From Desulfovirgula sp. (lineage in GTDB: Bacteria > Bacillota > Desulfotomaculia > Desulfotomaculales > Desulfovirgulaceae), in assembly GCA_020725525.1 (NCBI GenBank), contig DYEX01000134.1, positions 1 through 43,151 on the forward strand: 43,151 bases of DNA, in the 5' to 3' direction. The notes under the pieces were generated by a model. It did no database searches, was not told the DNA's origin, and saw only the letters and a program-made list of their open reading frames with translations. Positions 3,875 through 42,990 of this stretch are shown piece by piece. The first letter of the stretch is position 1. Each line of letters opens with the position of its first letter. The position numbers and the translations under genes were made by a program.

Positions 3875-4853
3875 CATTACCCGCCTCGTAACTTTCTTGC
3901 TCGTTTTAAGCCTGGCCGCCGGTCCCGCTGCCGCAGGCAGCAGTATGCCGGTGACCGGGGGGCTTTCCAGTCAACCGGTACAAAATATTGATTACTCACC
4001 TTTAAAAAAACAGATGGAAAAATTTGTACAGGGGAAAAAGTCCACCTTTGCCGTATACTTCGAGGATCTGGCCTCCGGCACCAGTTTCGGCATTAATGCA
4101 GGCAAGCCAATGGTGGCGGCCAGCACGGTCAAGCTGCCCATGGCCCTGTATATAAACCATCTGGTGGTACAGGGTAAAATGCACTGGTACGACCGGGTGA
4201 GTTACCGCAAGGCTACGGATTACGAAGACGGTTCTGGAGTGCTGCGTTACGAAGCCAGGGACGGAGATACCTACTCCCTGCGCCTGCTGGCCAATCTCGC
4301 CATCACCATCAGCGATAACGTGGCCTTTCGCATGCTGGCCAGGCATGTGGGCCGGCCAAATTTTATTGCTTATATGAAGCAACTGGGTGGGCGCACCGTC
4401 TATCCAGGAGGTAAAAATTTAACCACCGCCCGGGATCTGGCCACCTATGTCAGGGCCACCCTGGATTTTGCCCGGCGCCATCCGCAGGAGGGCCTGCGCC
4501 TGCTGGACGATCTGGCCCACCCGTCTTTTCATACCGGCTTACCGGGGTTGCTTCCGCACCAGGTCATGGTGGCCCATAAGGAAGGGGACCTGGAGGGGAT
4601 AGCCAACGACTGCGGGGTGGTCTTTGGCCGCCGGCCTTACATCCTGGTGGTTCTGTCCAGTGGTGTGAGGGATACCCGGCAGGGTTTTGCCGACATCGCC
4701 CGCTTAAGCAGGATGGCTTACGATTTTCAGGAATCTCTCCCGGCGGCTGAAATATTCCCGGTATACCAGTCACCGGTAAATGTTTCAGTAAAACCGCTCC
4801 CACCGGCACGGTGCCGCGTTGTCCAAAGCGAACGACTTGCGAAGCGCTGGTAA
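3867..4853 (+). CDS. Beta-lactamase-fold serine hydrolase (class A-like), exported
   Basis: This 328-residue protein has a signal peptide (about residues 1-23) and the active-site motifs of the class A beta-lactamase/PBP superfamily: STVK at 86-89, SDN at 149-151, and KEG at 238-240 in place of the usual K[T/S]G. Proteins of this type in sporulating clostridia are often annotated as beta-lactamase-related hydrolases; substrates may be cell-wall peptides rather than drugs. It overlaps cwlD by 8 bp and has a GGGAGGTGAAAC ribosome site. The last 25 or so residues (from about 304, after PVYQSP) are encoded by a palindromic repeat inserted at 4777, so the native C-terminus has been replaced. True beta-lactamase activity is unproven. 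Confidence 0.8.
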   Translation: MVNITRLVTFLLVLSLAAGPAAAGSSMPVTGGLSSQPVQNIDYSPLKKQMEKFVQGKKSTFAVYFEDLASGTSFGINAGKPMVAASTVKLPMALYINHLVVQGKMHWYDRVSYRKATDYEDGSGVLRYEARDGDTYSLRLLANLAITISDNVAFRMLARHVGRPNFIAYMKQLGGRTVYPGGKNLTTARDLATYVRATLDFARRHPQEGLRLLDDLAHPSFHTGLPGLLPHQVMVAHKEGDLEGIANDCGVVFGRRPYILVVLSSGVRDTRQGFADIARLSRMAYDFQESLPAAEIFPVYQSPVNVSVKPLPPARCRVVQSERLAKRW

Positions 4854-5087
4854 CGGCACCCGGCGAAGCGAGGGTAACCGGACTGCGGCGCGAAACCAGC
4901 GGCACCGAAATGTAACTAAGAAAAAGGTGGCTTACTGAAACGGTAAAAAGATGACAGTAAAGTGCAACTGCCATGCCGCATTTGCAGCGCCGCCAGTCCG
5001 GTCCGAAGCGAGCCGCGGTGCCGTCAGCGCGGAGCACTGGAGTGAGCGTGGACAACGCGGCACCGTAGCGGGGTCATTGAACATTTA
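4777..5087. repeat. Palindromic MITE-like repeat, copy A
   Basis: The element begins TAAATGTTTCAGTAAAACCG and ends TAGCGGGGTCATTGAACATTTA, which are inverted versions of each other. The inner arms also pair over long stretches: GGTGCCGCGTTGTCC at about 4812-4826 with GGACAACGCGGCACC at about 5050-5064, and ACCGGACTG with CAGTCCGGT further in. TCACCG flanks both sides (4770-4775 and 5091-5096), perhaps a target duplication. It encodes nothing recognisable. It shares 18 identical bases (4888-4905) with copy C, and its ends resemble those of copy B. Confidence 0.75.
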
Positions 5088-18247: not shown

Positions 18248-18286
18248 GGGACAAATTGTATACATTATGCCTCATCTCCCTTTGGA

Positions 18287-18473
18287 GGTGAGGTAGAGGT
18301 TGCGGACAGCAAGAGTACCCTGGTGGAGGAACCGGGTTCCGGAGAAACCGGGGGAAAGGGTTGCCCGCCGAAGTTCAGCCGTTGCCCGGAACGGCTGGGC
18401 TGGGCCGTCATCGAAAAGGTGCCGGACTGTCACCCGGTGGTTGCCCTGCTGCCGGGTGGAGCGCTATCTCACC
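18287..18473 (+). ncRNA. Lysine riboswitch (L-box)
   Basis: The leader of lysA shows the conserved elements of the lysine aptamer in order: GGTGAGGTAGAGG at the 5' side of P1, GCGGACAGCAAGAGTA in the core, GCCCGCCGAAG, GCTGGGCTGG, GGACTGTCACC, and GGAGCGCTATCTCACC closing P1. GGTGAGGTAG (18287-18296) pairs with CTATCTCACC (18464-18473). Lysine binding in this class usually promotes a terminator downstream. A hairpin just upstream (18271-18292) uses the same 5' P1 strand and may compete. The downstream gene makes lysine, which agrees. Confidence 0.93.
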
Positions 18474-18507
18474 AGGGGGAGAGGGCGTATTTTCGTTTGT
18501 GCTTAAT

Positions 18508-34888: not shown

Positions 34889-34996
34889 AGCTCCTGCCGG
34901 AATTAGCGGAAGTCGGCCCCTATTGTTTTTCTGTTGCGGTTATCCTATAATGTTTGTACCAACGGGGGGTTCACGGCCCGAATGGAGGTGAGCGGG

Positions 34997-35416
34997 ATGG
35001 CCCTGCCGGGAAGCAGGCAGGTGGCCCGGGTAGCCCTGACCATGGCTTTAAGTGAGGGTAGGGAACAGGAACGGGAGTTAAAGTCCCGTTTCGCCCGGGA
35101 GGGTTTTAAAACGGCTGCAGTGGATTGCGGTGGGGATTTTATCTCCTCAGTAAATAAGATTACCGAGCGGGCAGTGGTAGCTGCCAAGCGGGAAGGTGTA
35201 ATCAGGGAAGTCCACGCCGAGGAAGGGGCTGTGGCCGGAGCTACCCGGGAGGCCCTTTCCCAGATCATGTCCAAGGCCATTGGTTTAAACGTAGGGGGCA
35301 AGATAGGTATTGCCCGGCACCAGGATCATATCAGTGTGGCTGTTTTCTTTGGCGTGGGACTTCTACACCTGGACGATGTGGCGGTTGGACTGGGGCACAG
35401 GGCGGTTTCTTCATAA
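34997..35416 (+). CDS. HutP family RNA-binding antiterminator-like protein
   Basis: This 139-residue protein matches HutP, the Bacillus subtilis protein that binds UAG-containing mRNA and prevents termination in the histidine-use operon when L-histidine and a divalent metal ion are present. The conserved C-terminal half is seen: TREALSQIMSKAIGLNVGGK, IGIARHQDHISVAVFFGVGL and HLDDVAVGLGHRAV. ATG 34997 has GGAGGTGA 5 bp upstream. No hut genes are in the window; its neighbours are chorismate mutase and the trp operon. It could control a distant target, a nearby leader, or respond to another ligand. The family call is firm, the role unknown. Confidence 0.87.
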   Translation: MALPGSRQVARVALTMALSEGREQERELKSRFAREGFKTAAVDCGGDFISSVNKITERAVVAAKREGVIREVHAEEGAVAGATREALSQIMSKAIGLNVGGKIGIARHQDHISVAVFFGVGLLHLDDVAVGLGHRAVSS

Positions 35417-35530
35417 AGGTTTGCCCCTGGGTTTGAGGCCATTGCTTGCTTTTATATGAGACCCCCCAGGACGAAGCACCCGGGTTTGTCCAGGGGTGGT
35501 TCACATTCAACATTACGGGGGGATGGTAGG

Positions 35531-35908
35531 ATGGCAAAGATCTATGTACGGGGTATCCGGGGAGCAATAACGGTAGAACGGAATACGCCTGAGGATATCA
35601 TCCAGGCTACGGGTGAACTTTTGCAGGCCATCATGGACGAAAACGAATTGCAACCAGAGGACATTGCCAGCGCCTTTTTTACCGTTACTGCCGATCTTAA
35701 TGCCGAATTTCCGGCTACGGCAGCCCGGGAACTGCTGGGATGGAAATACGTACCCCTTTTATGTGCCCGGGAAATTGATGTGCCCGGGCGCCTGCCCAGG
35801 TGCATCAGGGTACTGGTCCATGTGAACACCACCCGCTCCCAGCGGGAAATCAAGCATGTTTACCTGCGTGAGGCCGTACAACTGCGTACAGATTTACTAC
35901 CCCAATGA
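35531..35908 (+). CDS. aroH: Chorismate mutase, AroH type
   Basis: This 125-residue trimeric AroH-family enzyme converts chorismate to prephenate, the first committed step to Phe and Tyr. Family features are [58 protein letters not shown] and [22 protein letters not shown] 35531 has GGGGGG about 10 bp upstream. It lies just before the trp promoter, so the two chorismate-using branches are neighbours but separately transcribed. Confidence 0.94.
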
Positions 35909-35938: not shown

Positions 35939-35967
35939 TTGACAAAACCACTTCTCCGTGGTAAGGT
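35939..35967 (+). promoter_or_regulatory. SigA-type promoter of the trp operon
   Basis: TTGACA (35939-35944) and TAAGGT (35962-35967) are exactly 17 bp apart. The expected start is near 35974, 20 nt before the first (G/U)AG triplet of the leader. Confidence 0.8.
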
Positions 35968-35993: not shown

Positions 35994-36047
35994 GAGTCGA
36001 GTGTAGTAGAGCAGAGTTGAGGGGAGCTGCAGTTGAGACGTGGCGAG
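35994..36047 (+). promoter_or_regulatory. TRAP (MtrB)-type binding site: eleven spaced triplets
   Basis: In the trp leader, triplets start at 35994, 35999, 36004, 36009, 36014, 36019, 36024, 36030, 36035, 36040 and 36045. They read GAG, GAG, UAG, GAG, GAG, GAG, GAG, CAG, GAG, GUG, GAG, so nine of eleven are exact (G/U)AG. Spacers are 2 nt, with one of 3 nt. TRAP is an 11-subunit ring that binds eleven (G/U)AG triplets with 2-3 nt spacers when tryptophan is present. A strong terminator follows 28 nt later. mtrB is not in the window. Confidence 0.8.
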
Positions 36048-36075
36048 TCTTGATCTGGTTGGAACGGGTTGGACC

Positions 36076-36109
36076 GCCGGCGCTCAGTGGAGCGCCGGCT
36101 TTTTGTTTT
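36076..36109 (+). terminator. trp leader terminator (attenuator)
   Basis: A perfect 10-bp stem GCCGGCGCTC / GAGCGCCGGC (36076-36085 and 36090-36099) with loop AGTG is followed by TTTTTGTTTTG. It sits between the triplet array and trpE, 20 bp before the start codon. I could not identify a convincing antiterminator pairing by eye. Confidence 0.9.
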
Positions 36110-36129
36110 GTTAACAGGGGGGTTGCAGT

Positions 36130-37689
36130 TTGATTTTTCCCTCGGAAAAAGAGTATTTAAAACTGGCCTGCCATTACCGGGTGATACCGGTAACTGCCGG
36201 GTGGGAGGCAGACATGGAAACACCCATCTCCCTTTTCACCCGTTTTATTAACAAAAAGCCTTCCTTTCTTCTGGAAAGCGTGGAGGGTAATGAAAAACTG
36301 GCCCGCTATTCCTTTATTGGTTTTGACCCCTTAGCCGTTTACCGCCAGCGGGGCAGGTGGGGACAAATTCACCCTTCGGAAAACTGTTGCCGGATTTTAA
36401 CCGAAGCCTTCGAAAACGGTGAAGTAAGGCTGGTAGAAGCCCAAAAGGAAAACCTTCTGGTAGAAGGGAACCCGTTTACCGTACTGGAGCAGATTCTGCG
36501 CTGCTGGCGTGCTCCCTCTTTCCCGGGGTTCCCCCGCTTTTACGGCGGCGCCGTGGGCTACTTTGGCTACGACCTGGTACGCTGGCTGGAACGACTGCCG
36601 GAACGGACCGGAGATGACCTGGGCCTGCCCGACATGATCCTCCTCTTTACCGGCACCCTGCTCATCCTGGATCACCTGCGGCACACTTTAAGGGTGGTGG
36701 TGAATACCCTGCCCGGGCCAGACCCGCAGGCAGCATACCGGCTGGCAGTTAAGACCATTGAAGAAATTTGCCGCTTGCAGAGCCTTCCCCTGAGCGGTGA
36801 ACCGCCAGGTGGTCAGACAGAAATAGCCATGCAGCCCCCTGCTGCCGGGGTAAGCGCCGGTATAAGCGCCAACCTGACCCGGGAAGAATTTATGAACCTG
36901 GTGCAGAAGGCCAAAGCATACATACGGCAGGGAGAAATCCTCCAGGTGGTCCTTTCCCAGCGCCTGCAGGTGCCCTTTAACGGCCATCCCTTCCAGGTCT
37001 ACCGGCGGCTGCGCCGCATCAATCCCTCACCATACCTGTATTACCTTGACCTGGGTGATGTGGTAATGGCAGGCTCTTCGCCGGAGATGCTGGTACGGGT
37101 GGAGGATAAGGTAGTGGAAACAAGACCTATAGCGGGCACACGCCCCCGGGGAGATACTCCCGCTCGTGATGAAGCGCTGGCAGAAGAATTGCTGGCCGAC
37201 CCCAAGGAGCGGGCGGAACACGTGATGCTGGTGGACCTGGGGCGCAATGACCTGGGCCGGGTATGCGAGCCGGGGAGCGTAACCGTGCCCCAGTTCATGG
37301 TCGTGGAGAAATACTCCCACGTCATGCACCTGGTCTCATCGGTACGGGGCAGGCTGGCCCCCGGTCAATCGGCCTTCGATGCTTTCAAGGCCTGTTTTCC
37401 GGCCGGTACGGTTTCCGGGGCACCGAAGGTGCGGGCTATGGAAATCATCGAAGAGCTGGAGCCTCATAAAAGGGGTCCCTATGCCGGAGCAGTGGGTTAC
37501 CTGGGATTTAACGGCAACCTGGACACGGCCATCACCATCCGCACTGTGGTTTTTCACCGGGGCTACGCCCACGTGCAGGCCGGAGCAGGTATTGTGGCCG
37601 ACTCCGTGCCGGAAAAAGAATATGAAGAAACCATGAACAAAGCCCGGGCCCTCCTGCAAACCTTAGCCGCAGAGAGGAGGGATGAGTGA
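36130..37689 (+). CDS. trpE: Anthranilate synthase component I TrpE
   Basis: This 519-residue enzyme makes anthranilate from chorismate with TrpG. The feedback-binding motif LLESVEG near residue 47 is present, so inhibition by tryptophan is expected. Catalytic-domain motifs are GTRPRGDTPARDE, LVDLGRNDLGRVCEPGSV, FPAGTVSGAPKVRAMEIIEE and AGAGIVADSVPEKEYEET. The start is TTG 36130, with AGGGGGG 7 bp upstream; no ATG fits as well. It is the first gene of trpEGDCFBA, behind the leader attenuator, and its stop is 3 bp before trpG. Confidence 0.97.
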   Translation: MIFPSEKEYLKLACHYRVIPVTAGWEADMETPISLFTRFINKKPSFLLESVEGNEKLARYSFIGFDPLAVYRQRGRWGQIHPSENCCRILTEAFENGEVRLVEAQKENLLVEGNPFTVLEQILRCWRAPSFPGFPRFYGGAVGYFGYDLVRWLERLPERTGDDLGLPDMILLFTGTLLILDHLRHTLRVVVNTLPGPDPQAAYRLAVKTIEEICRLQSLPLSGEPPGGQTEIAMQPPAAGVSAGISANLTREEFMNLVQKAKAYIRQGEILQVVLSQRLQVPFNGHPFQVYRRLRRINPSPYLYYLDLGDVVMAGSSPEMLVRVEDKVVETRPIAGTRPRGDTPARDEALAEELLADPKERAEHVMLVDLGRNDLGRVCEPGSVTVPQFMVVEKYSHVMHLVSSVRGRLAPGQSAFDAFKACFPAGTVSGAPKVRAMEIIEELEPHKRGPYAGAVGYLGFNGNLDTAITIRTVVFHRGYAHVQAGAGIVADSVPEKEYEETMNKARALLQTLAAERRDE

Positions 37690-37692
37690 GGA

Positions 37693-38295
37693 ATGGCAAA
37701 TCAAGCAATCAAGCTATTAATGATTGATAACTATGACTCCTTTACCTATAACCTGGTGCAATATTTTGGGCAGCTGGGTGTAGCCGTGGAGGTCAGGCGC
37801 AATGACCGGGTTACTCTGGAAGATATCGAGCTTATGGAACCCACCCACATAGTCATTTCTCCCGGTCCCGGCAACCCCGATGGGGCAGGAATTTCCCTGG
37901 CCGTAATCAGGCACCTGGCCGGCAAAGTACCCATCCTGGGAGTTTGCCTGGGCCATCAGGCCATCGGCCGGGCTTTTGGCGGGCGCGTGGTCCAGGCCGG
38001 GCAGCTGATGCACGGCAAAACATCACCCATCCACCACGATGGGCGGACCGTTTTTGCCGGATTGCCTTCCCCTTTTGTGGCCACCCGCTATCATTCCCTG
38101 TTGGTGGAGAAAGATCACCTGCCCGAATGCCTGGAGGTTAGTGCCTGGACGGCCGGGGAAGAGATTATGGGTTTAAGGCACCGGGAGTTTACCGTCGAAG
38201 GGGTGCAGTTTCACCCGGAGTCCATCCTTACGGAATACGGGCGGGACTTACTGGCCAACTTCCTGCGCTGCCGGGGTGGCCGGTGGACTGCCTGA
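37693..38295 (+). CDS. trpG: Anthranilate synthase glutamine amidotransferase TrpG
   Basis: This 200-residue class I glutamine amidotransferase supplies ammonia to TrpE. The catalytic cysteine is C85 in [12 protein letters not shown], and the His-Glu pair is in [15 protein letters not shown]. The first motif, [15 protein letters not shown], is typical. In Bacillus the same protein may also serve folate synthesis, but its place inside the trp operon points to tryptophan here. ATG 37693 has GTGAGG upstream. Confidence 0.96.
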
Positions 38296-38332
38296 TCCGC
38301 CTACCAATTCCAGCCGAGAGGAGCCGAGAAAG

Positions 38333-39367
38333 ATGATCAAAGAAGCCATCAGCCGGATAGTGGCAGGGGAGAATTTAACTGAATCAGAAGCAGAACAGGT
38401 AATGGATGAACTCATGACCGGCCGGGCCACTCCGGCCCAGATCGCCGCTTTGCTTACCGCCCTGCGCCTGAAAGGTGAAACCATTGAGGAAATTACCGGC
38501 TTTGCCCGGGCCATGCGTCGCCATGCCACCCCCATTCAGTCCAAACAGCCTTTACTGGTGGATACCTGCGGCACCGGTGGGGACGGCGCCAGCACCTTTA
38601 ACATTTCCACCGCCGCAGCCGTGGTGCTGGCCGGGGCGGGAGTTCCGGTGGCCAAACACGGCAACCGCTCCGTGTCCAGCCGGTGCGGGTCGGCCGACGT
38701 TCTGGAAGCCCTGGGGGTAAATCTGGAGCTATCTCCTGCTGCCATAGAGGAATGCCTGGAAGAAGTGGGCATGGCCTTTCTTTTTGCCCCGGCACTGCAC
38801 GGGGCCATGAAACATGCTGCCGGGCCCCGGCGGGAAATCGGCATCCGCACGGTATTTAACATCCTCGGTCCCCTGACTAATCCTGCCGGAGCCAGGGCGC
38901 AGGTCGTAGGAGTATACAGCCCGGACCTGGTCCCTGTTATCGCACGGGTCCTCTCCCGGCTGGGGACCAGACGGGCCTTTGTGGTTCACGGTGCCGGCGG
39001 CCTGGATGAAATCTCCCTGGCCGGGCCGGCAGTGGTGGCGGAAGTGCGGGAAGGGGAGATCAGGGAATATTTTTTGGATCCGACGGATTACGGCTTTGCC
39101 CGGACTCCGGTGGAAGCACTGGCCGGAGGCAACCCGGAATACAATGCATCCCTGATCCGGGATATACTGCAGGGGGTTCCAGGACCCTGCCGGGATGCGG
39201 TGCTCCTTAACAGCGCCCTGGGCCTGGTGGCTGCCGGTAAAGCCGGGGATCTATCCACCGGGCTGGCCCTGGCCGCACAAAGCATTGACAGCGGCGCGGC
39301 TGGCAAGAAACTGGAACAGCTGGTGGCCTTCACCCGCCGTGCCGCCAGGCAGGTGGCCAGTCTTTGA
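38333..39367 (+). CDS. trpD: Anthranilate phosphoribosyltransferase TrpD
   Basis: This 344-residue enzyme transfers phosphoribose from PRPP to anthranilate. The glycine loop CGTGGDGASTFNIST (near residue 80) binds pyrophosphate, and KHGNRSVSSRCGSADVLEAL and RREIGIRTVFNILGPLTNPA are the other signatures. ATG 38333 is preceded by GAGAGGAG. Its stop overlaps the trpC start by 4 bp, so the two are translationally coupled. Confidence 0.97.
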   Translation: MIKEAISRIVAGENLTESEAEQVMDELMTGRATPAQIAALLTALRLKGETIEEITGFARAMRRHATPIQSKQPLLVDTCGTGGDGASTFNISTAAAVVLAGAGVPVAKHGNRSVSSRCGSADVLEALGVNLELSPAAIEECLEEVGMAFLFAPALHGAMKHAAGPRREIGIRTVFNILGPLTNPAGARAQVVGVYSPDLVPVIARVLSRLGTRRAFVVHGAGGLDEISLAGPAVVAEVREGEIREYFLDPTDYGFARTPVEALAGGNPEYNASLIRDILQGVPGPCRDAVLLNSALGLVAAGKAGDLSTGLALAAQSIDSGAAGKKLEQLVAFTRRAARQVASL

Positions 39368-40143
39368 TTCTGGACCGGATTATTGCCCACAAATACCGGG
39401 AAGTGCAGCAATATAAAGAGATTCGTCCCCTTTCCCGGCTGACAGGGCAGATGGAGACACTCCCTCCCACCAGAAATTTAGCCGCCTTCCTGCGGAGGCC
39501 CGGCGAGGTGAGCCTTATTGCCGAGATCAAACGGGCATCGCCCTCCAAGGGCTGGCTAAAGAAAGGGCTAAAACCGGTGGAGCTGGCTCAATCCTACCTC
39601 CGGGCCGGGGCTAAAGCCATCTCCGTCCTTACCGATAACTATTTTTTCCGTGGTCACCGGGCTTTTTTACCTCTGGTGCGCCGGGAAAGCCCGGTCCCCC
39701 TTTTGCGCAAGGACTTTATCATTGATCCCTATCAAATTTATGAAGCCCGGTGGCTGGGGGCCGACGCCATTTTACTCATTGTAGCCGTGCTTGACGACCG
39801 CCAGTTGACCGGCTTCCAAAAGCTGGCTGACGAACTGGGCCTGAGCTGTCTGGTGGAAGTACACACCGAAGAGGAACTGGTACGGGCCCTGGCCTCCGGC
39901 GCCACCTGTATCGGTATTAATAACCGGGACCTGCACACTTTTAAAACAGATCTGGCCACCACCTTCCGCCTGCGGGAGAAAATTGCCGACCCCAAAACAA
40001 TCGTGGTCAGCGAAAGCGGCATTAATTCCAGGCAGGATATGCTGGCCCTGGCCAGATACCGGGTTGATGCGGCCCTGGTGGGAGAAGCCCTGGTCAGAGC
40101 AGACAACGTAGAGCAAAAGATAAGAGAACTGCTGGGGAAGTAA
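39364..40143 (+). CDS. trpC: Indole-3-glycerol phosphate synthase TrpC
   Basis: This 259-residue TIM-barrel enzyme closes the indole ring. Motifs are LIAEIKRASPSKGWLKKG, DNYFFRGHRAFL, LLRKDFIIDPYQIYEAR, LVEVHTEEELVRAL, IGINNRDLHTFKTDL and VSESGINSRQDM. The start is TTG overlapping the trpD stop (TTGA). It is followed by 77 bp without a gene before trpF. Confidence 0.97.
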   Translation: MILDRIIAHKYREVQQYKEIRPLSRLTGQMETLPPTRNLAAFLRRPGEVSLIAEIKRASPSKGWLKKGLKPVELAQSYLRAGAKAISVLTDNYFFRGHRAFLPLVRRESPVPLLRKDFIIDPYQIYEARWLGADAILLIVAVLDDRQLTGFQKLADELGLSCLVEVHTEEELVRALASGATCIGINNRDLHTFKTDLATTFRLREKIADPKTIVVSESGINSRQDMLALARYRVDAALVGEALVRADNVEQKIRELLGK

Positions 40144-40220: not shown

Positions 40221-40835
40221 ATGGTACGGGTGAAAATCTGCGGCATTACGAATCTGAAAGACGCCCTGGCAGCCGCGAAGGCGGGGGCAGATGCGCTCGG
40301 TTTCATCTTTGCTCCCAGCCCCCGGCGCATTACACCGGCACAGGCCCGCCTCATTTGCCGGGAATTACCGCCCTTCATCACCAGGGTAGGTGTGTTTGTC
40401 GATGCCCCGATCGAGGAGGTCCGGGCGGTGGTGGAATACTGCGGGCTGGATGCACTTCAGCTACACGGCAGCGAATCCCCGGACTGCTGCCGGGCCCTGG
40501 GCCGCAGGGTGATCAAGGCTTTCCGCGTTGGTGACGCGATTAACAGGGACGAGGTTGCTCATTTTCCCGCCGATGCCATTCTGCTGGATACGTACATTGC
40601 CGGCCAAAAGGGCGGCACCGGGTGCACCTTTGACTGGCAGCTGGCCGCCGGTTTAAAGCTATCCCGCCCCCTCATCCTCGCCGGCGGGTTAACACCGGAA
40701 AATGTCCGCCAGGCCGTAGCCACAGTCCAGCCCTACGGGGTGGACGTAAGCAGTGGAGTGGAAAAGGACGGCCATCCGGGGAAAAAGGACCCGGAAAAAA
40801 TCCGCCGCTTCATTGCCGCAGCCAAAGGCCTTTAA
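40221..40835 (+). CDS. trpF: Phosphoribosylanthranilate isomerase TrpF
   Basis: This 204-residue TIM-barrel isomerase performs the Amadori rearrangement before ring closure. The N-terminal motif VKICGITNLKDA has the catalytic cysteine (C7 position), DALGFIFAPSPRRI follows, and the catalytic aspartate is in ILLDTYIAGQKGGTG. GVDVSSGVEKDGHPGKKDPE near the C-terminus is typical. ATG 40221 has GGAGGAG upstream. Confidence 0.96.
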   Translation: MVRVKICGITNLKDALAAAKAGADALGFIFAPSPRRITPAQARLICRELPPFITRVGVFVDAPIEEVRAVVEYCGLDALQLHGSESPDCCRALGRRVIKAFRVGDAINRDEVAHFPADAILLDTYIAGQKGGTGCTFDWQLAAGLKLSRPLILAGGLTPENVRQAVATVQPYGVDVSSGVEKDGHPGKKDPEKIRRFIAAAKGL

Positions 40836-40859: not shown

Positions 40860-42050
40860 ATGTCTTTACCAGACGAACGGGGCTATTTCGGACCCTTTGG
40901 AGGCCGCTACGTGCCGGAAACTCTCATGCCGGCCCTGGAAGAATTAACCGCAGCCTACCAGAAAGCCCGCCGGGACCCGTCTTTCTGGCGGGAGCTGGAA
41001 TATTATCTCCGGCAATATGTTGGACGGCCTTCACCGCTGTACTTTGCCCGCCGTCTGAGTGAATACTGCCAGGGGGGCAGGATTTATCTCAAGCGGGAAG
41101 ACCTCAACCACACCGGTGCCCACAAGATAAATAATACCATTGGCCAGATTCTTCTGGCCCGTCGCATGGGTAAAAACCGTGTTATTGCGGAAACCGGCGC
41201 CGGCCAGCACGGAGTGGCCACGGCTACCGCTGCCGCTTTGTTCGGCATGGAATGTGCCGTTTACATGGGGGAGGAGGATATGGCCCGCCAGGCCCTGAAC
41301 GTCTTCCGCATGCGCATCCTGGGCGCTACGGTGGTTTGTGTCCAGACGGGCAGCCGTACCTTAAAAGACGCCATGAACGAGGCCATGCGAGATTGGGTGA
41401 CCACCGTGCAGACCACCCATTACCTGATCGGCTCGGTGGCCGGCCCCCATCCCTATCCCATGATGGTGCGGGATTTCCAGCGCGTGATTGGTGAGGAAAC
41501 CCGCCGGCAGGTGCAGGAGCAAACCGGGAGGCTACCCGATGCGATTGTGGCCTGCGTGGGTGGGGGAAGCAATGCCATAGGCATATTCCACCCCTTCCTG
41601 GAGGATGAAGGAGTAAAACTGGTCGGGGTAGAAGCGGCAGGGTGCGGGTTGGATACCAATAAACACGCCGCCACCCTTAACCGGGGCCGCCCGGGAGTGC
41701 TACACGGCTCGAAAAGCTACGTCTTACAGGATGAAGACGGTCAGATCAATCTGGCCCACTCCATTTCCGCCGGCCTGGATTACCCCGGCGTGGGTCCGGA
41801 ACACAGCTATTTGAAAGAAACGGGCCGGGTTACCTATACTGCCGTAACCGACGGGGAGGCTCTGGAGGCCTTTCAACTGCTCTGCCGCACCGAGGGAATC
41901 ATTCCCGCCCTGGAAAGTGCCCATGCCCTGGCCCATGCAGTGAAAATGGCAAAGGAAATGCCCAAAGACGCCATCGTGGTGGTAAACCTCTCCGGACGGG
42001 GGGATAAGGACGTGGAAACCGTCGCCCGCATCCTGGGCAAAGAGGGCTAA
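40860..42050 (+). CDS. trpB: Tryptophan synthase beta chain TrpB (TrpB1)
   Basis: This 396-residue PLP enzyme joins indole with serine. The PLP lysine is K89 in HTGAHKINN, the substrate loop [12 protein letters not shown] is intact, and the phosphate loop is [12 protein letters not shown]. It begins [16 protein letters not shown], typical of the TrpA-dependent TrpB1 class, unlike the TrpB2 at 16784. ATG 40860 has GGGAGGA upstream, 24 bp after trpF. A 133-bp gap without a recognisable gene separates it from trpA. Confidence 0.97.
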
Positions 42051-42183: not shown

Positions 42184-42990
42184 ATGAAAGAAAACCGCAT
42201 CACCAAACGTTTTGCCGCTCTTGCTCTGGAGGGGAAAAAGGGTTTAATCACTTACATCACGGCCGGGGATCCGGATCTGGACAGCACCGCCCGCCTGGTA
42301 AATACCATGATTGCAGCCGGGGCCGACATGGTGGAAGTGGGTATCCCTTTTTCCGATCCGGTGGCCGACGGCCCGGTTATTCAGCAGGCTTCCGCCCGGG
42401 CGCTGGCCCGTGGCGTGAGGGTAAGGGACATCATCCGCACGTGTGCCGTGATCCGGCAGAGCACCGATGTTCCTTTGATCCTGATGACCTACTATAACCC
42501 CGTCTTTCAGTACGGGCTGGAAGATTTCGCCCGGGACGCCGTACTGGCCGGAGTGGACGGCCTGATCGTGCCCGACCTGCCCTTTGAGGAAAGTAAGGAC
42601 CTGCTGGGGTATACTGACCATTATGGGCTGGCCCTCATACCCCTGGTGGCCCCCACCACCACCGAAACCCGGCTGGCCGCCATGGCGCCGGTCGCCCGGG
42701 GGTTTGTTTACTGCGTCTCGGTTACCGGAGTAACCGGTGCCCGGGAGGAAATCAGCACCGACCTGGCGAAGTTTACGCAGAAGGTGCGACGGCACGTATC
42801 CCTGCCCTGCGCCATTGGCTTTGGCATTGCCGGGCCGGTGCAGGCGGTCCGGGTGGCACCATACTGTGATGCTATGGTGGTGGGTAGCGCCATCGTCGAC
42901 CTGGTGGCCAGGGCGGGTAACGGCGACCCCGCGCCGGCGGTGGCCTCCCTGGTAAGGGAAATAAAGTGTGCTATCGAAAAATGTGCCTGA
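42184..42990 (+). CDS. trpA: Tryptophan synthase alpha chain TrpA
   Basis: This 268-residue TIM-barrel subunit cleaves indole-3-glycerol phosphate and channels indole to TrpB. The catalytic residues are in MVEVGIPFSDPVADGP (Glu and Asp), with LMTYYNPVFQYG, GLIVPDLPFEES, VYCVSVTGVTGARE and IGFGIAGPVQA as further signatures. It is the last gene of the operon. The ribosome site is unclear (CCTGGGAACAGTC precedes the ATG), so initiation may be weak. I see no terminator after it before the window ends. Confidence 0.97.
   Translation: MKENRITKRFAALALEGKKGLITYITAGDPDLDSTARLVNTMIAAGADMVEVGIPFSDPVADGPVIQQASARALARGVRVRDIIRTCAVIRQSTDVPLILMTYYNPVFQYGLEDFARDAVLAGVDGLIVPDLPFEESKDLLGYTDHYGLALIPLVAPTTTETRLAAMAPVARGFVYCVSVTGVTGAREEISTDLAKFTQKVRRHVSLPCAIGFGIAGPVQAVRVAPYCDAMVVGSAIVDLVARAGNGDPAPAVASLVREIKCAIEKCA

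Follow-up and report, generated by a model that had tools for sequence, protein, structure and literature searches.

A predicted TRAP attenuator before the trpEGDCFBA operon of Desulfovirgula sp., and related arrays at transporter and iorAB genes in its order

Introduction

The best-described relative of the system analyzed here is the trpEDCFBA leader of Bacillus subtilis, in which 11 (G/U)AG triplets separated by spacers of 2 to 3 nt occur together with the MtrB (TRAP) protein, and in which the terminator and the antiterminator are mutually exclusive. The triplets are contacted by residues Glu36, Lys37, Lys56, and Arg58 of B. subtilis TRAP (PMC4027176). Here, we analyzed a stretch of 43,151 nucleotides from Desulfovirgula sp. 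(order Desulfotomaculales), referred to below as the window, which has a leader sharing all of these features in front of trpEGDCFBA. This leader is very probably a TRAP-controlled transcription attenuator. As such, it is ordinary within its order and of a kind already known; the wider TRAP regulon is the part that would surprise a specialist.

Results and Discussion

The trp operon and its leader

All seven genes of the operon, regarded as complete in a preliminary description of this DNA, were confirmed by NCBIfam and are encoded on the plus strand. They comprise trpE (anthranilate synthase component I; 36130 to 37689; TIGR00564, E = 1.3e-168), trpG (glutamine amidotransferase; 37693 to 38295; TIGR00566), trpD (38276 to 39367; TIGR01245), trpC (39364 to 40143; NF001377), trpF (40221 to 40835; NF002298), trpB (40860 to 42050; TIGR00263), and trpA (42184 to 42990; TIGR00262), with the trpG, trpC, trpF, trpB, and trpA matches above the cut-off. 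An AroH-type monofunctional chorismate mutase gene (TIGR01796) lies at 35456 to 35908, immediately 5' of the trp promoter, and a HutP-family gene at 34934 to 35416 (PF09021, E = 1.9e-50) is located two genes 5' of trpE. The order hutP-aroH-trpE recurs in congeners and in some other families. Elsewhere in the window, a lysine riboswitch (RF00168, 123.7 bits; 18286 to 18474) precedes a gene for a PLP-dependent decarboxylase of the diaminopimelate/ornithine/arginine family.

A probable promoter on the plus strand (35939 to 35967), identified by eye and by script, consists of TTGACA at 35939 to 35944, a 17-nt spacer, and TAAGGT at 35962 to 35967. Its hexamers and spacing are the same in four congeners, while G003 has TATGGT; a stricter promoter scan did not list the site. 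As the −10 hexamer ends 26 nt before the first triplet, the transcript probably starts ~19 nt ahead of the array.

The predicted TRAP binding site occupies 35994 to 36047 of the plus strand and is supported by scoring, shuffles, a sequence model, and conservation. It consists of eleven NAG-type triplets (GAG, GAG, UAG, GAG, GAG, GAG, GAG, CAG, GAG, GUG, and GAG) with spacers of 2, 2, 2, 2, 2, 2, 3, 2, 2, and 2 nt. A scan of this region thus agreed with the preliminary count of 11 triplets, nine of them exact (G/U)AG, the two nonideal ones being number 8 (CAG) and number 10 (GUG). The leader region is purine rich. The array scored 17.5, compared with a mean of 5.2 and a maximum of 15.5 in dinucleotide-shuffled leaders, none of which (0 of 1,000) scored at least 17.5. 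Likewise, shuffling just the array plus its 10-nt flanks 1,000 times never reached the observed score. The top array score in shuffles of the whole window (n = 20) was 12.5, and the runner-up site within the window itself reached 7.0 under near-identical scoring. A sequence-only array model matched the window once, at the trp leader array (32.1 bits, E = 3.7e-9), a result that is partly circular because a slightly edited version of the window array was among the 13 sequences of the model. No T-box was detected in the window at Rfam gathering scores; the T-boxes of the same genome are located on other contigs, none of them at the trp operon.

Terminator and antiterminator

An intrinsic terminator identified by a terminator scan follows the array at 36076 to 36109 on the plus strand. 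Its stem-loop (36076 to 36099) has a 10-bp stem with nine GC pairs and a 4-nt loop, GCCGGCGCTC-AGTG-GAGCGCCGGC, and is followed by TTTTTGTTTT. Both distances given in the preliminary description hold: the 10-bp terminator begins 28 nt past the array, and trpE starts 20 nt past the T-run, with a TTG codon at 36130. A Shine-Dalgarno-like AGGGGGG of trpE is present at 36116 to 36122 on the plus strand.

A competing antiterminator, which the preliminary description had left to computational folding, is predicted on the same strand and is conserved within the genus. Its 5' strand, UGGCGaGUCU (36041 to 36050), includes triplet 11 with the A bulged, and its 3' strand, GGACCGCCG (36071 to 36079), shares its final 4 nt with the beginning of the terminator 5' arm. 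When the window leader was cut before the terminator 3' arm, this helix formed with a pairing probability of ~1.0, and it was the dominant fold of such truncated leaders in six congeners. Keeping the array unpaired in the computation, to mimic the TRAP-bound state, made the antiterminator impossible. All nine pairs were kept in 54 of 54 cells in six congeners, compared with 22 to 67% when the pairing was slid. Four one-sided (GU-type) changes and no double compensatory change were observed in six close sequences, and the weaker pairs were the outer ones in G001 and pair 11-41 in all sequences but the window. The calculated energies were −17.1 kcal/mol for the antiterminator versus −21.9 kcal/mol for the terminator hairpin (order mean, −18 kcal/mol), and the full-length leader favored the terminator, with values of at least 0.93 in five congeners and 0.61 in G003.

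Across the order, CTC was found in the terminator 5' arm or loop of 40 of 45 leaders and in the 3' arm of none of the 45. A CTC on the 5' arm makes this arm complementary to GAG triplets. In free RNA, the terminator arm was sequestered to a greater extent than with shuffled spacers (0.76 versus 0.66; p = 9e-7), and outside the genus its partner was often the spacer rather than the array. Order-wide pairing between arm and array exceeded that of the reverse complement (p = 0.012) but not that of a shuffled arm (p = 0.23). As this order-wide test was weak, we limit the antiterminator claim to the genus and, for the order as a whole, keep to the softer result on sequestration of the terminator arm.

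By homology to B. subtilis, we infer TRAP binding, a response to tryptophan, and termination at this leader. When tryptophan is scarce, positions 36041 to 36050 of the free RNA (triplet 11 and its neighbors) would pair with 36071 to 36079, and the resulting antiterminator hairpin, by occupying four bases at the start of the terminator 5' arm, would allow read-through into trpEGDCFBA. When tryptophan is abundant, a tryptophan-loaded MtrB ring would wrap the 11 triplets, and with TRAP on the array, no antiterminator would form; the terminator at 36076 to 36099 would then fold and stop transcription before trpE.

For B. subtilis, a minor role of the hairpin has been argued, with TRAP affecting chiefly trpE translation or the polymerase itself, and B. 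subtilis TRAP is able to terminate transcription without the attenuator hairpin (PMC3913778). For the leader studied here, we regard such a mode of action as improbable, as its hairpin, GC rich and followed by a T-run, forms a strong terminator that is conserved order-wide. Moreover, the trpE start lies clear of the triplets, and the leader fold 3' of the array shows no clear array-dependent effect on sequestration of the Shine-Dalgarno sequence. A second effect on translation, raised in the preliminary description, therefore found no specific support, and attenuation at the terminator is the reading that we retain.

MtrB and conservation among relatives

Searching the genome for mtrB, as proposed in the preliminary description, identified one gene (G000:C24:10215-10415; E = 3.6e-39), which is an NCBIfam MtrB equivalog scoring above the cut-off and is flanked by dnaE-like and accD-like frames (names read from translations). 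The encoded protein aligns to B. stearothermophilus TRAP (1c9s) over nearly its whole length, and the RNA-contact positions E36, K37, K56, and R58 are identical in both, allowing for a two-residue numbering offset between the contact list and 1c9s that was worked out within this analysis.

mtrB was present in 58 of 60 order genomes, including that of the window, and in 152 of 299 sampled genomes of the phylum. A TrpE-like match was found in 57 order genomes and was preceded by an array scoring at least 12 in 53 of these. Nearly all arrays before trpE in the order come with a terminator, terminator counts in this study being lower bounds because the scripts overlooked or wrongly placed a few stems with bulges. 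Aligning the leader with those of relatives, a comparison likewise suggested earlier, showed that array and terminator are kept in all five congeners and nearly order-wide; they recur before trpE while spacers and flanks vary. Neither of the two outcomes that the preliminary description named as refuting it, a genome lacking mtrB or a triplet spacing not conserved in close relatives, was thus obtained. Among the genomes deviating from this pattern, G010, in which no such array was found, is without trpC, its TrpE-like match probably being a paralogue, and the partial array in the trpE leader of G023 appears to be broken up after the fourth triplet and has a repeat-like insert downstream. The trp genes are present in G026 and G033, and no array was found just before trpE in either; in G033, trpB is located upstream of trpE.

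In 40 genomes taken from the phylum sample, the array model matched 17 of the 20 that have mtrB and 1 of the 20 that lack it (Fisher p = 4e-7). In G012, a good trp array (10 of 11 triplets exact) was present and mtrB was not found in an assembly estimated to be 99% complete; as its congeners G037 and G045 have mtrB, an assembly gap is likely. Near-perfect 11-triplet arrays (score, 20.5) precede trpE in two Halanaerobiales-type MAGs (L079 and L086), and in a Bacillota MAG (L074:1451-1503), the array runs up to where the trpE match begins, as though translation were blocked.

The array, mtrB, the terminator, the competing fold, and their conservation were all established by computation, and the TRAP site that the preliminary description called notable is, on sequence evidence, genuine. 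It is not rare, however, given mtrB in 58 of the 60 order genomes and about half of the phylum sample. Our literature search, which covered few subscription reviews, found TRAP undescribed in these anaerobes, and an earlier clostridial mention is possible. TRAP control may be viewed less as a Bacillus speciality than as the apparent standard control of tryptophan synthesis in a large group of strict anaerobes.

HutP is a histidine-activated RNA-binding antiterminator and attenuation regulator that also recognizes NAG triplets, and its gene is located close to trpE in the window as well as in several relatives. HutP sites have few triplets, with spacers of ~4 nt. In contrast, the layout of 11 triplets at 2- to 3-nt spacing is of the TRAP type (PMC3913778), and a HutP match is absent in ten mtrB-positive relatives with trp arrays (G009, G013, G014, G021, G024, G027, G028, G032, G034, and G038). 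As HutP was not found in these array-bearing genomes, it was rejected as the reader of the array, for which it is a very unlikely candidate. That the array is a chance purine-rich repeat beside an ordinary terminator has a negligible probability despite the purine-rich region, as 0 of 1,000 shuffles matched it even at its own composition, and the co-occurrence with mtrB also argues against chance, which is refuted by the order-wide conservation.

TRAP arrays at transporter and iorAB genes

A survey of the 60 order genomes with the array model, in which some gene names were read from translations, pointed to a TRAP regulon extending beyond trp. Matches were found 5' of TrpP-family ECF transporters (PF17099), TrpX-like ABC binding proteins (NF041285, below cut-off), APC permeases, separate trpB and trpD operons, and pabA/pabB-like genes. 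The genome of the window has a second array (L169; G000:C68:8191-8224, minus strand) before dctPQM, with its own terminator and competing fold. This array is conserved before dctPQM in four congeners and lies directly before iorA in G003; matches 5' of iorA were also obtained in several other families. The operon of G001 reads dctP-dctQ-dctM-iorA-iorB-aryl-CoA ligase, with IorA matching TIGR03336 (E = 1.9e-252) and the ligase matching PaaK below the curated cut-off. In many other genomes, iorA-iorB follow trpP-ecfA-ecfA'-ecfT, and the ligase comes next wherever the retrieved stretch is long enough. In the genome of the window, an internal deletion has removed most of both ior genes from the corresponding operon; its scar, in L200 (minus strand, ~4766 to 5020), fuses the start of iorA to the end of iorB at a place where iorAB of the congener G001 is intact. 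Another iorAB of the window's genome, at a contig end on C95, has no visible array. At several trpP loci (L245, L254, L255, and similar), extra GAG/UAG triplets lie over the ribosome-binding site (gatgaggagagatgaagATG in L254, for instance), hinting at an additional control of translation.

Among the 27 iorA genes at least 59% identical to that of G001, 21 have an upstream array scoring at least 11; iorA of G016 has a weak array and a terminator, and two of the remaining array-less genes are at contig ends. Seven loci of the related IOR paralogue (~41 to 53% identity) were scanned and gave no array, 9 being the best score, and none of its copies adjoined a match listed in the genome-wide search with the model. 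As the stretches scanned for the two IOR groups were not of equal length, we place more weight on the genome-wide search.

As TRAP shuts genes off at high tryptophan levels, a role of the array-associated IOR in supply fits, and one in breakdown does not. The ligase family spends ATP on activating aryl acids. The closest solved relatives of DctP are 4n6d, 4pgn/4pgp, and 4nap (E, ~1e-83 to 1e-88), of which we take 4pgn/4pgp and 4nap to be Dde_0634. Dde_0634 has been reported to bind indole-3-acetate (PMC9543091, PMC9973260). Furthermore, G055 (97% complete) has neither trpE nor trpC and no trpB above the cut-off, yet it retains mtrB as well as an array in front of trpP-ecf-iorA, a pattern suggestive of a salvage of indole acids that tryptophan would repress. 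On these grounds, salvage is a likelier reading than breakdown for the array-associated iorAB.

On balance, we lean toward a Desulfotomaculum-type TRAP regulon that reaches beyond trp to TrpP-ECF, TrpX-like ABC, APC permease, and DctPQM transporters and to units of transporter, iorAB, and aryl-CoA ligase. In this regulon, the TRAP-controlled IOR would be biosynthetic, converting imported indoleacetate to tryptophan by reductive carboxylation, and the TRAP-free paralogue would be catabolic. TRAP together with IOR was undescribed in our literature search, which covered few subscription reviews. The 11-triplet array would mark genes that the cell treats as tryptophan supplying, and it splits two IORs, one apparently tryptophan repressed and the other not, which makes the direction of IOR in anaerobes directly testable.

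Comparison with known systems

Several features set the leader in the window apart from that of B. subtilis. The B. subtilis trp leader has a 5' stem-loop, for which the only ~19 nt expected before triplet 1 here are too short. Also, trpG is inside the operon in the window, unlike in B. subtilis. The B. subtilis terminator, with six AU and four GC pairs and an interrupted U-stretch, is weak alone (PMC3913778), whereas the 10-bp terminator in the window is GC rich and strong. Unlike in the TRAP/anti-TRAP circuit of B. subtilis, no convincing anti-TRAP was found here: the search for rtpA in the genome of the window gave only a weak match of 27.7 bits (32.4 with neighbors) within a 433-amino-acid frame. 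The order as a whole appears to be without anti-TRAP. The one clear anti-TRAP match, in G002 (L121), has phage-like neighbors and, as read here, resembles a zinc finger of the DnaJ type; it was not counted.

Premature termination in the leader is common to this system and to the T-box (tRNA-Trp) control of trp genes in other Firmicutes, no T-box being present here. A TRAP-controlled trp leader is likewise shared with B. halodurans, in which 19 NAG triplets and a 12-mer TRAP ring have been described (PMC3184956). Compared with those 19 triplets, the array in the window has 11, a number that would fit an 11-mer ring.
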